The position numbers were made by a program, and so were the translations under genes. DNA of 54,693 nt. It comes from Bacteroidaceae bacterium (lineage in GTDB: Bacteria > Bacteroidota > Bacteroidia > Bacteroidales > Bacteroidaceae). Under the pieces are notes generated by a model. The model did no database searches, was not told the DNA's origin, and saw only the letters and a program-made list of their open reading frames with translations. This document shows, in pieces, positions 48,538-54,693 of this stretch; position 1 is the first letter of the stretch, and the number at the start of each line of letters is the position of its first letter. Location of the stretch: positions 1-54,693 of the forward strand of contig JAFQEZ010000075.1 of NCBI GenBank assembly GCA_017398805.1, in the 5' to 3' direction.

Positions 48538-49710
48538 CTAACAATAGTCATCTATGCTATCACCTCCAGTCCACTCTAAACCTTGAGCTAAGGTAAATCG
48601 TTTTCTTGCACCATCTTCTGCAAAAAATGTTCCTATACTCTCATGAATGATTTTATCGTCAGATATATATATCTTTGAAAGGGCATATGGCTTAAATCCG
48701 CCCTCATTAACACTGAAAACAAGGATAGAGTTATTATCATCTATGTATGCCTTATCAACTATTTTCTGAAAATCAGGCTTATCATTACCATAATACAAAG
48801 TGGAGTTGTAATTACATCCAATAATCAAATTATTAAAATATTCTGTGATAGTATTGTTGCTTACTTCTGATGGACAACATAAAAAATCTGTTGGAGTTTT
48901 CCATCTTTTCTGCCATGCAACAGCTGGAGATTTAGCTTGTACTAATTCAGGCTCAAATGATTCAATGGAAACTCTTTCCTTCTCCTTTGAAACCTGTTCT
49001 AATTCTTTATATGGCTTTCTTAATGACCTAGTCATTCTTTCCCATTCCTCACTAGATACATTTCCTTGAGAATTGTATTGGTCGTTATTTGAATTATCCA
49101 TATTAGGTTTACTTACCTGATGTAATGAAGATGTGTGTATTTCAGGAATTCGCTCACTAAATATCATTTCACTCATTTTACCCCCAGCCAATGGTTTGGG
49201 TTTTGCAACCTGTTCTTCCCAATATTGTTTGATATTATTATACGCTGTAGTAGCTTCTTCTCTTGTGACGGTACGCATCCACTCTAAAGATGGTTCTCCG
49301 ATAAGGCGTTCTCTCAGAATGCTAGGATTTTCAATAAAAGCTTCAATACTTCCACAAATGTAGATTATCTTATTTCGGGTAATTTCGTTGTTCAAAGCAT
49401 TTTCCAAACGAGTAAACCAACGCAAGTTTTCTACTCGATTATTGCAACGATTAGTATCAATATGGTCAACAACATATACCTTAGAATCTCGTGCTCCAAG
49501 AAATGCTGTAGCAACAATAATATGAACCCTATGCTGACCGAGCATCATATAACCGTTATGTGAATTCTTTACGCCAAAAGTCCACACACCATCATCTCTA
49601 CGAGGCTTCTTACCCTCACGCAGATGTCGCATTACCGCACCATTATTACGCACAGAGTAGTGTTCTTCTTTATAAATACACTCTTTAATATCTGTATAGT
49701 CATTAAGCAT
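48538..49710 (-). CDS. HNH-nuclease-domain protein with a novel C-terminal region
   Basis: A 390-aa protein. Residues ~1-60 resemble a NUMOD4-type lead (YSVRNNGAVMRHLREG). Residues ~60-105 are an HNH_3-type nuclease (HRVHIIVATAFLG, then VDHIDTNRCNNRVENLRW with His83, Asn91 and Asn95). Residues 105-290 are polar and low in conservation signals. The last ~100 residues (FNNLIIGCNYNSTLYYG, KIYISDDKIIHESIGTFF) form a compact alpha/beta-looking domain I do not recognise. HNH_3 proteins of this kind are usually short phage or homing nucleases, so the extension is unusual. The gene is visibly A+T-richer than its neighbours and lies between ~100-bp direct repeats, both signs of transfer. Confidence 0.8.
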   Translation of the reverse strand: MLNDYTDIKECIYKEEHYSVRNNGAVMRHLREGKKPRRDDGVWTFGVKNSHNGYMMLGQHRVHIIVATAFLGARDSKVYVVDHIDTNRCNNRVENLRWFTRLENALNNEITRNKIIYICGSIEAFIENPSILRERLIGEPSLEWMRTVTREEATTAYNNIKQYWEEQVAKPKPLAGGKMSEMIFSERIPEIHTSSLHQVSKPNMDNSNNDQYNSQGNVSSEEWERMTRSLRKPYKELEQVSKEKERVSIESFEPELVQAKSPAVAWQKRWKTPTDFLCCPSEVSNNTITEYFNNLIIGCNYNSTLYYGNDKPDFQKIVDKAYIDDNNSILVFSVNEGGFKPYALSKIYISDDKIIHESIGTFFAEDGARKRFTLAQGLEWTGGDSIDDYC

Positions 49711-51209: not shown

Positions 51210-51312
51210 CTATTCAGCAACTGTTTTATCGCGATAACGGGAGGCTATATTCGTTATTTGAAAAGTTTATGCATCATAACATGAATAATTAACTAATGTG
51301 TACAATTGTCCG

Positions 51313-51343
51313 TTGTATTATTTTACAAGGTGTGCGATATTTG
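51313..51343 (+). promoter_or_regulatory. promoter of the XRE-DUF2075 genes
   Basis: TTG (51313-51315), a 20-base spacer and GATATTTG (51336-51343), one base off TAnnTTTG, lie 78 bases before the ATG. Two direct repeats of the form aatatRcggWaat follow at 51351 and 51370, spaced 19 bases, a possible binding site for the XRE product. Confidence 0.5.
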
Positions 51344-51420
51344 CGAGGATAATATACGGAAATGGATGTAATATGCGGTAATTGCGTATTTGTTCCATCT
51401 TTTTATTAAGAAAACACATT

Positions 51421-51639
51421 ATGTCTTTACAGGAAAATTTAGGAAGAACAATTGTCCGCTTGCGCCGTGGAAAGGGCTTTTCGCAAGAGGCATTTGCCAA
51501 TGAAGCCGGCATCGACCGCCGATATATGAGTGATATTGAGAATGGAAAACGAAATATCTCAATTGATATTCTTGAGCGTATATGCAACAAACTCGGCATG
51601 AAGATGAGCGAGTTGTTTGTCGAGGTGGAAAAGGGGTGA
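51421..51639 (+). CDS. XRE-family transcriptional regulator
   Basis: From the ATG at 51421 the product is 72 aa and almost entirely a helix-turn-helix of the XRE/Cro type: LGRTIVRLRRGKGFSQEAFANEAGIDRRYMSDIENGKRN, then the stabilising helices. An in-frame ATG 13 codons upstream adds residues not typical of the family. Such small regulators usually repress their own promoter and the linked gene. The DUF2075 gene starts 32 bases downstream, so the two form an operon. Confidence 0.92.
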   Translation: MSLQENLGRTIVRLRRGKGFSQEAFANEAGIDRRYMSDIENGKRNISIDILERICNKLGMKMSELFVEVEKG

Positions 51640-51671
51640 ATGCATTATAGGAAAACGATTAATTTAGAATT

Positions 51672-53720
51672 ATGTTCAATAGATACTTTCATGGCGACAC
51701 AATAGAGGGATTTCTTGCTATGCCGGATGTGCAGATTATTGGTGGTCTAACCACAGCGCACACCTTGTTGCACGCTTCATTGCAGGGCTTGCAAGCAGAA
51801 GCATGGCGCGAAGAGATTTCGCTTTTGAAAGAAATCCTTGCTCCATACATAGGTCGAGGCCATATCTACTTTGAATACACCATTCCGCGAATGGGTCGTC
51901 GTATTGACGTTGTATTGCTGCTTGATGGCGTAGTGCTTTTGTTGGAGTTTAAGGCATTCAACGAGCAATACACCAAAGCGGACATAGCGCAAGTATGGGA
52001 CTATGCGCTTGACCTGAAAAACTTCCATGAGCAGAGTCATAATCGCCCGATTGTGCCAATATTGGTTGCGACCGAAGCTGTCAAGGTTGCCCCTGATTTT
52101 ATTCCTTTTGACGATAAGGTTTTCTATCCTATACTAACCAACCGCGAACAGCTCGCTTCGACTATCGCTGAGGCGTTGCTATTCTGTGATAAAGACAGCT
52201 CCGGGGATGATGCATTGTGGGCGATTAGCCGTTATTCACCAACTCCGACCATCATTGAGGCGGCAAGCGCACTTTACAACAACCACTCTGTTGAAGATTT
52301 ATCACGTTCCGATGCTTCGGCTGAGAATCTCACAACCACCTGTGGATTTATTTCGTCAGTCATTGAACGCGCAAAGAGTGAGCATTTCAAGGCAATATGC
52401 TTTGTAACGGGTGTACCGGGCGCAGGAAAAACTCTTGTAGGTTTAAATATCGCAACACAGCAGTTTGAAAAGGACGATGTTGCAGTCTATTTGTCTGGAA
52501 ACTTCCCGTTGGTACAGGTGTTGACCGAGGCCCTTGCGCGCGACAAGAAGCGTCGCATGGCGGAGAAGGGCGAGAGGATCGCTATTGGCACAGCTCGTTC
52601 GGAGGTTAAGACCTTTATACAGATGATTCACCATTACCGCGATACTTGTTTGGAGGGAACAAAGGTTGTGGATGGTCATATCGTGGCAGATGAGGAGTAC
52701 TTTCTCAATCCGAAAAACCTTAAAAAGTCATTCGTGCCAGTGGACCATGTTGCAATTTTTGATGAGGCACAGCGTGCATGGACGAAGGATGCTCTTGAAA
52801 ACTTTATGAGTCGCAAGAAGGGATATCCAAACTTCCCATATTCCGAGCCGGAGTATCTTATTTCGTGTCTCGACCGCCACGATGATTGGGCTGTCGTTGT
52901 ATGTCTTGTAGGTGGTGGACAGGAGATCAACACCGGAGAGGCCGGTATCAGTGAGTGGATAGAGTCGCTTAACCGCGAATATAAAGATTGGCATGTGTTT
53001 ATCTCAGACCGACTACACGATGCTGAGTATGCAGCCGGTCGCTCATTGGAGCTGCTGTCAGAACATAAATATGTGGAGTTTGAACCCTCATTGCATTTGG
53101 CTGTTTCAATGCGCTCGTTCCGTGCGGAGAATCTTGCTAAGTTTGTACACGAGCTACTGGATAGAAATGTTGAAGGTGCTCAAGAGGCATACCAGACACT
53201 CGATAAATATCCAATCGTGCTGACACGTTCGCTCGATAAGGCAAAGCGATGGTTGAAGGAGCATGCGCGAGGTACGGAGCGATATGGAATGATAGTGTCT
53301 TCACAAGCCGAACGATTGAAGCCATTAGCTATTGATGTACGCTTTAAGCCTGATGTGGTGCATTGGTTTTTGGATGATGCAACAGACGTGCGCTCGTCAT
53401 TCTATTTAGAGGATGTGGCTACAGAGTTTGATGTGCAGGGCTTGGAGCTCGATTGGTCGTGTGTCGTTTGGGATGGTGATTTTAGATACACTCCCAATGG
53501 CTGGTCTCACCACTCATTCTGCGGTGACAAGTGGCAGAACATCAACAAACCAGAACGCAAAGCCTTCCAGAAGAACGCTTACCGCGTACTACTCACCCGT
53601 GCTCGACAGGGCATGGTCCTCGTTGTCCCCGAAGGCAACCCGGAGGATCCAACGCGCAACTCCGCTTACTACGACTCGACGTATGAGTATTTGAAGGAGA
53701 TAGGAATAACTATATTATAG
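51672..53720 (+). CDS. PD-(D/E)xK nuclease / DUF2075 ATPase (defence-like)
   Basis: A 682-aa protein. The N-terminal ~200 residues hold a nuclease-like core: Asp79 in RRIDVVLLLDG, and Glu92/Lys94 in LLLEFKAF, matching D...ExK. The C-terminal part is a DUF2075 (SF1 helicase-type) ATPase: Walker A GVPGAGKT (247-254), Walker B VAIFDEAQ (360-367), ISDRLHDAEY..., and motif VI YRVLLTRARQG with Arg643/Arg645. Expected activity is nucleic-acid processing driven by ATP. DUF2075 proteins with nuclease fusions occur in defence islands, and the linked XRE regulator and neighbouring TIR gene fit this. No frameshift or missing motif is seen. A plain DNA-repair role is the alternative. Confidence 0.85.
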   Translation: MFNRYFHGDTIEGFLAMPDVQIIGGLTTAHTLLHASLQGLQAEAWREEISLLKEILAPYIGRGHIYFEYTIPRMGRRIDVVLLLDGVVLLLEFKAFNEQYTKADIAQVWDYALDLKNFHEQSHNRPIVPILVATEAVKVAPDFIPFDDKVFYPILTNREQLASTIAEALLFCDKDSSGDDALWAISRYSPTPTIIEAASALYNNHSVEDLSRSDASAENLTTTCGFISSVIERAKSEHFKAICFVTGVPGAGKTLVGLNIATQQFEKDDVAVYLSGNFPLVQVLTEALARDKKRRMAEKGERIAIGTARSEVKTFIQMIHHYRDTCLEGTKVVDGHIVADEEYFLNPKNLKKSFVPVDHVAIFDEAQRAWTKDALENFMSRKKGYPNFPYSEPEYLISCLDRHDDWAVVVCLVGGGQEINTGEAGISEWIESLNREYKDWHVFISDRLHDAEYAAGRSLELLSEHKYVEFEPSLHLAVSMRSFRAENLAKFVHELLDRNVEGAQEAYQTLDKYPIVLTRSLDKAKRWLKEHARGTERYGMIVSSQAERLKPLAIDVRFKPDVVHWFLDDATDVRSSFYLEDVATEFDVQGLELDWSCVVWDGDFRYTPNGWSHHSFCGDKWQNINKPERKAFQKNAYRVLLTRARQGMVLVVPEGNPEDPTRNSAYYDSTYEYLKEIGITIL

Positions 53721-53787
53721 AATGTGGAAAACTTTATTACATAGCCAGAATGATGTTGTTTGATGTATCAGAGTAATCGTTCCTGGG

Positions 53788-53810
53788 TTAATCTCTTGCC
53801 CAGGTGAGGT
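53788..53810. other. hairpin between the DUF2075 and TIR genes
   Basis: CCTGGG pairs with CCCAGG around an 11-base loop. There is no T tract after it. The 136-base gap holds no recognisable promoter of the consensus type. Confidence 0.35.
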
Positions 53811-53856
53811 AATATCTATGGATGAGATATCTAAAATGTATATAATATAATCACAT

Positions 53857-54555
53857 ATGGATGAAATAAGAAAATTGATAAACTCCTGTATATCTATTCT
53901 TAAATCAATGAGAATTGATTATAACACCACCATTGGTCCAAGGACTAATGCGTTAATGTTAGAGGTGAGAAAATTAATTCCATTGTTGGAAAAGGAACAA
54001 CCACATATAGCCAATATCCTAAAACAATCATTGGGCAATATAGTTTCTAATCAAATATATATTAATGCATATGTTTTTGGCGATGTACGAACTGCTTTAA
54101 AGATTCTTGACAACATATATTCAAATACCAATGATAATGAATCAAACAGACATGGCAAAAAAATCTTTATCAGCCATTCATCTAAAGATAGAGATATTGT
54201 TGAGAAGTTTGTTGATCATATATTATTACTAGGTATTGGCTTATCAACTGAAGATGTTTTTTGTACATCCATAGAAGATTTGGCAATCAGAAATGGAGAA
54301 GATATAAGAAATCACATACATGCGAATATTCAGAATGCGGACTTTTCTATTTTATTAATCTCTAACAACTATAAAAATAGCGAAATTTGCATGAATGAAA
54401 TGGGAGCAGTTTGGGCGTATAATAATAATGTGCGATATTATTTATTGCCAGATTCAAATTTTGATACAATTGGCTGGTTGTGTAACCCGAATCAGGCAGA
54501 GAAACGATTTAACTCTATTGCTTTGGATGCCTTAAAATTAGAACTATCTAATTAA
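53857..54555 (+). CDS. TIR-domain protein (putative NADase effector)
   Basis: A 232-aa protein. Residues ~1-95 are helical with no family I recognise (LMLEVRKLIPLLEKEQPHIANILKQ region). Residues ~101-225 form a TIR domain: KKIFISHSSKDRDIVEKFVD at the start, FSILLISNNYKNSEICMNEMG with the S-x-x-C-x-x-E pattern (Ser175, Cys178, Glu181), and YYLLP later. Bacterial TIR domains with this glutamate cleave NAD+ on phage detection. The gene is much A+T-richer than the ATPase gene before it, suggesting separate acquisition. The stop codon is formed exactly at an IS junction, so the original C-terminus may be a few to many residues longer. Confidence 0.85.
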   Translation: MDEIRKLINSCISILKSMRIDYNTTIGPRTNALMLEVRKLIPLLEKEQPHIANILKQSLGNIVSNQIYINAYVFGDVRTALKILDNIYSNTNDNESNRHGKKIFISHSSKDRDIVEKFVDHILLLGIGLSTEDVFCTSIEDLAIRNGEDIRNHIHANIQNADFSILLISNNYKNSEICMNEMGAVWAYNNNVRYYLLPDSNFDTIGWLCNPNQAEKRFNSIALDALKLELSN

Positions 54556-54693
54556 CGTGAGTTCGATATAAGAATTTTAATTTGCATTAAAATTAACTCG
54601 TTGAAAATTAGGAGAATAGCGATAAAAGTTGTAACTTTAGGTGTCCAATCAAAAGATTTACAACCACTTACCGCTATGTTCTCCGAGGATAAA
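54554..54693 (+). mobile_element. left end of an insertion sequence with start of its transposase
   Basis: The 18-base terminus aacgtgagttcgatataa (54554-54571) equals the termini of the MITE at 30502-30665. An ATG at 54676 opens a frame MFSEDK that runs out of the window, matching in my memory the start of a Bacteroidales DDE transposase; the family (possibly IS982-like) is not certain. Inside lies a small ttttaat/attaaaa hairpin. Target duplication cannot be checked because the right end is outside. Confidence 0.65.

Follow-up and report, generated by a model that had tools for sequence, protein, structure and literature searches.

A probable stack of unrelated anti-phage modules, with an interrupted SpbK-like TIR gene, at a Bacteroidaceae contig edge

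The window analysed here is the whole 54,693-nucleotide contig JAFQEZ010000075.1 of a Bacteroidaceae bacterium (GenBank assembly GCA_017398805.1), designated contig C72 of genome G000, whose assembly comprises 108 contigs and is 87% complete. Close to its right edge, an XRE regulator gene, a gene for a 682-amino-acid nuclease-helicase and a TIR open reading frame (ORF) follow one another on the plus strand, with 136 bases separating the second from the third, as a preliminary description made from the letters alone had placed them. That description proposed the three genes as a candidate defence module; each gene is indeed defence-like, whereas the functional link among the three fails, since nuclease-helicase homologues are regularly found without a window-type TIR gene. 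Taken singly, the genes are of ordinary kinds or already listed in defence catalogues; they are stacked, one of them is broken, and the locus is best read, with good though not full confidence, as unrelated anti-phage modules collected in an accessory strip, the TIR module being disabled or weakened, and not as a three-gene system. The features concerned are the following.

51424..51639, plus strand: XRE (Cro/C1-type) regulator, restriction-modification control-protein-like, 71 amino acids from the ATG (HTH_3 E 3.3e-13; PADLOC Control_protein E 2.3e-20)
51672..53720, plus strand: nuclease-helicase, 682 amino acids, PADLOC PDC-S41 and Pfam SLFN-g3_helicase by profile matches
51804..52016, plus strand: PD-(D/E)xK-type motifs E68, D79, E92, K94 and Q107xxxY111 (residues about 45-115), invariant in 52/52 sequences
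52389..53630, plus strand: helicase/ATPase region (residues 240-653, the PF09848 range), with Walker A at about 246-254 and Walker B FDEAQR at 363-368
53667..54093, plus strand: block 99% identical to locus L015, running from the 3' end of the helicase across the intergenic bases into the greater part of the TIR N-terminal domain
53857..54555, plus strand: SpbK-like TIR gene, 5' part only, a 232-amino-acid ORF interrupted by an IS982-family element
53857..54132, plus strand: N-terminal domain of the TIR protein, residues 1-92, four predicted helices (AlphaFold2 model of the intact L015 relative)
54148..54549, plus strand: TIR domain without its last helix, the catalytic-type glutamate being residue 181 (alignments and L015 model)
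54550..54693, plus strand: left end of an IS982-family insertion sequence (IS), inside which the contig stops; its first base is ambiguous by about 5

The linkage of the genes was assessed across homologous loci. A window-type TIR gene was found downstream of the nuclease-helicase in 4 of 107 rows, corresponding to two distinct loci of about 105, namely the window and L015 (equal to L114 and G545), which belongs to the same genus; the count covered homologue ORFs of at least 450 amino acids other than L001 and retained the duplicates L112 (the window) and L114 (L015), and its TIR profile was built up from the TIR domain of the window itself, such that unrelated TIR types could be missed. The G521 homologue, from another genus and 94% identical, has no TIR gene. 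An HTH_3 gene of 50-140 amino acids within 250 base pairs (bp) upstream of the nuclease-helicase was observed at 6/107 loci, at about four places in the tree, which does not bear out a regular XRE adjacency either; this count omitted L001, L010, L012, L013, L095, L105, L112 and L114, ORFs below 400 amino acids and three loci without 250 bp upstream, and a looser profile count, up to 600 bp, gave 8/108 rows. With up to four genes taken per side, the most frequent neighbour cluster is shared by no more than 8 of 81 loci, and the window is the one locus of those examined where XRE, PDC-S41 and TIR genes stand together. A three-gene XRE, PDC-S41 and TIR system is not supported by these linkage counts and was rejected.

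The TIR gene itself is incomplete. Similarity between the TIR genes of the window and L015 stops at 54550, where the IS stretch starts, and copies of the window's last ~140 bases lie at the ends of contigs C63 and C69 and within C3, confirming the IS that had been noticed. The element splits the TIR gene near codon 231, and contig C84 carries the opposite IS end, with a matching inverted repeat and a transposase end, followed by the missing TIR part, which corresponds to residues 261-371 of the L015 protein and is 42% identical to it. A 6-bp direct repeat flanks the element on both sides by manual reading, and the family call comes from a plasmid homologue of the C84 transposase end, which belongs to NCBIfam IS982 (E 2.8e-52). 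The contigs would thus be ordered C72, IS, C84. The intact relative in L015 has 372 amino acids, in whose numbering the window ORF ends at about residue 262, so that the last TIR helix, which SpbK keeps, and a C-terminal winged helix are absent from it. The S-x-x-C-x-x-E motif reported earlier is present, with its glutamate at residue 181, but the gene is not whole, being cut short by the IS, and the window TIR protein is probably disabled or weakened because the IS982-family element removed the last TIR helix and the winged helix. Alternatively, the 232-amino-acid ORF could be a working short form, as the N-terminal domain and the catalytic-type glutamate are kept and some homologues end soon after the TIR domain; yet it stops before the last TIR helix, which 10 of the 12 aligned proteins reach, and the only other protein ending there, at L165, looks frameshifted, which leaves such a short form unlikely.

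The nuclease-helicase is a full-length match to PDC-S41, listed in PADLOC as a phage defence candidate (E 4.8e-271; protein residues 4-680, profile positions 3-651 of 657), and its residues 240-653 match Pfam PF09848, SLFN-g3_helicase (E 1.5e-76; 258.5 bits against a Pfam cut-off of 24). The DUF2075 assignment made at first sight is right under this present name, DUF2075 being the older name of PF09848. The N-terminal nuclease motifs were also correctly recognised: E68, D79, E92, K94, Q107 and Y111 are invariant in 52/52 aligned sequences, the window included, as are most of the Walker A and Walker B positions. An E, D, ExK and QxxxY arranged in this way are typical of those PD-(D/E)xK nucleases that have QxxxY, and the N-terminus, judged by its alignment, carries PD-(D/E)xK-type nuclease motifs. 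When the N-terminus (14 sequences) was compared by hhalign with two HsdR_N_2-type nucleases, as found in type I restriction, the D, ExK and QxxxY stood in register, although the similarity is non-significant (E 0.066, probability 0.8%); no methylase or specificity gene was recognised among the window neighbours scanned with Pfam. A solved-structure search returned one chance-level match for the single sequence and chance-level matches only for the profile.

As the helicase half is the domain of group 3 Schlafens, the protein might act on RNA or translation as the eukaryotic Schlafens do, rather than on phage DNA. The shared PF09848 domain is homologous, but the window protein carries PD-(D/E)xK-type motifs with QxxxY at its N-terminus and no AlbA-type RNase domain recognised by Pfam at E 0.01, and we consider this activity quite unlikely. 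Near Walker A, profile matches to SLFN11 (E 0.87) and SLFN5 (E 0.96) were no better than chance and rank below unrelated proteins.

Homologues of the nuclease-helicase are widely scattered. The scan of genome contigs gave at least 562 relatives among at least 589 pattern matches, of which the best 80 were retained, and within the family 22 of 301 genomes had a match, within the order 11 of 247. A 110-row tree, built by a quick method without L001, L006, L010, L011, L012, L013, L095, L105, L112, L114 and ORFs below 450 amino acids, intermingles Bacteroidota, Planctomycetota, Chloroflexota, Verrucomicrobiota, Thermodesulfobacteriota and others, the pattern that horizontal transfer would give. 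The nuclease-helicase thus appears, from its distribution, to be a trans-phylum, horizontally moving and mostly solitary gene. It was found in 1 of 50,697 phage records, 4 of 72,556 plasmid records and one viral-contig locus, and neither the TIR protein nor the ATPase of C84 described below matched a phage or plasmid record in single-protein scans able to detect close relatives only; with so few records for the former and none for the latter two, phage or plasmid cargo was rejected as an explanation.

For the XRE protein, restriction-modification control proteins are the closest PADLOC models, and a control-protein-like XRE gene directly upstream is a rare addition of the window to the PDC-S41 gene. 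The pairing of the two gains some support at the sequence level from two genomes of another genus, where the homologues L116 and L117 each have, 14 bp upstream, a gene for an XRE protein closely resembling the window's. The 11-mer ACAATTGTCCG occurs at 51302 and 51448, upstream of and inside the XRE gene, with no further copy in the window on either strand; it is possibly an operator, or chance.

The TIR ORF matches Pfam TIR_2 (E 1.5e-11), PADLOC spbK (E 4.7e-32) and the structure 9phb of SpbK, the Bacillus subtilis TIR NADase (E 4.7e-18). It shares with SpbK the TIR domain and the context of E192 (N-E-x-G-x-x-W, here NEMGAVW), and differs in its glycine at the position matching SpbK D158 (manual count) and in being cut before the last TIR helix; a C-terminal winged helix is a further feature of the L015 and L166 proteins and of the C84 part. 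In the SpbK study, the solved model shows the TIR domain only (PMC12847820). Sequence similarity between the N-terminal domain and SpbK reaches only 2.2 bits, and a VIA-align listing of fold relatives covered the TIR domain only. The AlphaFold2 model of the L015 relative has N-terminal helices at 2-16, 28-47, 49-62 and 71-91, and the last TIR helix at 269-293 followed by the winged helix, with a mean predicted local distance difference test score of 74.5 and a predicted template modelling score of 0.44, at which the order of the domains in space is not reliable. Thoeris was considered for the window TIR and set aside as less likely, as ThsB models (best E 1.3e-8) match it more weakly than spbK does, and no ThsA model matched any of the 4 window and 6 C84 proteins examined. 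Outside the genus, the nearest TIR homologue, L165:5172-5918 (G594), has an apparent frameshift just before the last TIR helix.

Pfam scans of 1 to 3 neighbours per locus at the other TIR homologue loci, several of which are truncated by a contig end, showed 7 of 17 adjoining restriction-modification genes and 1 adjoining PDC-S41. With neighbours this varied, the TIR gene looks like a passenger that keeps to no one partner, as would suit a single-gene system of the SpbK type. At L147, L148, L167, L169, L173, L174 and L175, an SpbK-like TIR gene adjoins a type I, IIG-like or III restriction-modification set or lies inside it.

Beyond the IS, 7 bp after the TIR part and on the same strand, C84 carries a gene for a 1197-amino-acid ATPase (L145:15166-18759), which matches YobI-ATPase (E 2e-116) and, over residues 31-967, Tmn (E 2.4e-79), and in which a P-loop NTPase domain is recognised. 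The guanine-plus-cytosine (GC) content is 0.306 for the TIR gene, 0.296 for this ATPase gene, 0.478 for the nuclease-helicase and 0.523 for mnmE; the different base composition of the TIR gene remarked on before is therefore real, and the chance neighbour that the preliminary description allowed as an alternative fits better, because the TIR gene matches in GC the ATPase beyond the IS and not the helicase. The short gap, the common strand and the equal GC would also agree with a two-gene system of TIR and YobI/Tmn-like ATPase, in which the nuclease-helicase is the chance neighbour. Against this, no window-type TIR was found at 8 other YobI-like loci, with about 0.3-1.5 kb upstream examined, nor any YobI-like gene in the stretches examined at 17 other TIR loci, L015's included. 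Tmn is presented, in the available text of its source, as a KAP-family transmembrane NTPase with no partner named (PMC11846954), and the C84 ATPase differs as a divergent Bacteroidales copy directly preceded by a TIR gene part. We give such a pair little credence.

Under the preferred reading of unrelated stacked modules, the first module would consist of the XRE gene and the PDC-S41 nuclease-helicase. Here the XRE protein probably controls the timing of expression or restrains it, as a restriction-modification control protein does. The nuclease-helicase probably loads on phage DNA, either at ends or at replication intermediates, is driven along by ATP hydrolysis and would cut the DNA with its PD-(D/E)xK domain. 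As the second module, a single gene would supply an SpbK-like TIR NADase; a phage protein would be sensed by its four-helix N-terminal domain, and NAD+ breakdown would begin when the protein clusters. The YobI/Tmn-like membrane ATPase, beyond the IS on C84, would represent the third.

Several observations weigh against this reading. The 3' part of the TIR gene is 42% identical to L015 and the 5' part 87-90%, so the putative join of C72 and C84 rests on the junction and not on smooth identity, and three contigs (C72, C63 and C69) end in the left IS end, with only one right end found. Neither the HsdR_N comparison, non-significant as given above, nor L015, where no XRE gene accompanies a nuclease-helicase 94% identical to the window's, speaks for the first module, and the TIR gene is without a proven partner at the ATPase either, because none of its type was found in the short upstream flanks of the 8 other YobI-like loci. 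Near neighbours of the nuclease-helicase (134 proteins) match 96 PADLOC families and far ones (129 proteins) match 31 (E 1e-15, 34 loci), a comparison that counts families and not genes, several models being able to match one protein; 136 near and 131 far proteins had been picked from the 34 loci, two L089 proteins common to both lists were dropped, and other duplicates are possible. This difference lends mild support to a defence-island setting.

The remaining point concerns the junction of the two genes. The intergenic stretch between nuclease-helicase and TIR is 135/136 identical between the window and L015, with the same adjacency and spacing, and 53667-54093 holds 3 mismatches in 427 positions, with a second identical patch near 54421-54505; per 100 bases, identity is about 81-90% in the nuclease-helicase gene, and it is 60-80% in the TIR domain, and the nuclease-helicase DNA of L015 is closer to G521, of another genus and without TIR, than to the window. 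Recent recombination would explain this mosaic running through the TIR N-terminal domain, and the recombined junction suggests that both same-genus lineages had the nuclease-helicase and TIR genes side by side. The pair may be under selection, because the two genomes share adjacency, spacing and intergenic sequence, and this also counts against unrelated modules. It is the best argument for a two-layer system, in which the nuclease-helicase attacks phage DNA, the TIR protein is a backup abortive effector and the IS marks a recent loss. The order, spacing and near-identical junction common to two same-genus genomes with different flanks, a junction that seems exchanged as a unit, speak for such a system; however, no TIR gene lies beside the G521 homologue or at about 103 of about 105 loci, TIR homologues mostly adjoin other genes, and the GC differs, so we hold two layers to be improbable. 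A narrower form, confined to the genus, seems a shade less probable still: PDC-S41 and a winged-helix SpbK-like TIR would be kept together and their junction exchanged between species as a unit, and the winged helix would serve as a sensor of nucleic-acid products or as a regulator of the operon. If the two-layer reading were true, DNA attack would be backed by NAD+ depletion.

The stacked modules stand in an accessory stretch of the contig. An EamA transporter gene and an HNH gene, the latter noticed before and confirmed here, precede the XRE gene:

48538..49710, minus strand: HNH gene (Pfam HNH_3 E 1.3e-14)

The HNH gene also has a homing-endonuclease-like PADLOC match (E 1.1e-11) and a GC of 0.356. 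EamA was tried as a core anchor and rejected, being itself accessory with occurrence in only 4 of 26 same-genus genomes (its own included), and mnmE was found in 18 of 21. Five same-genus siblings were compared past mnmE, and no empty site was demonstrable: three contigs stop 129-274 bases beyond it, and the two that continue (for 6.7 and 3.6 kb) gave no blastn match to the window beyond mnmE (47919 onward).

PDC-S41 represents a compact single-gene nuclease-helicase occurring across many phyla and sharing the helicase half of Schlafens, and it keeps some interest, as no published test of it was found in the open-licence literature searched. SpbK-like TIR genes adjoin many kinds of genes, restriction-modification sets at 7 of 17 loci among them, and what looks like a neat 'operon' at the edge of a contig can consist of unrelated modules, one of which a mobile element has broken.

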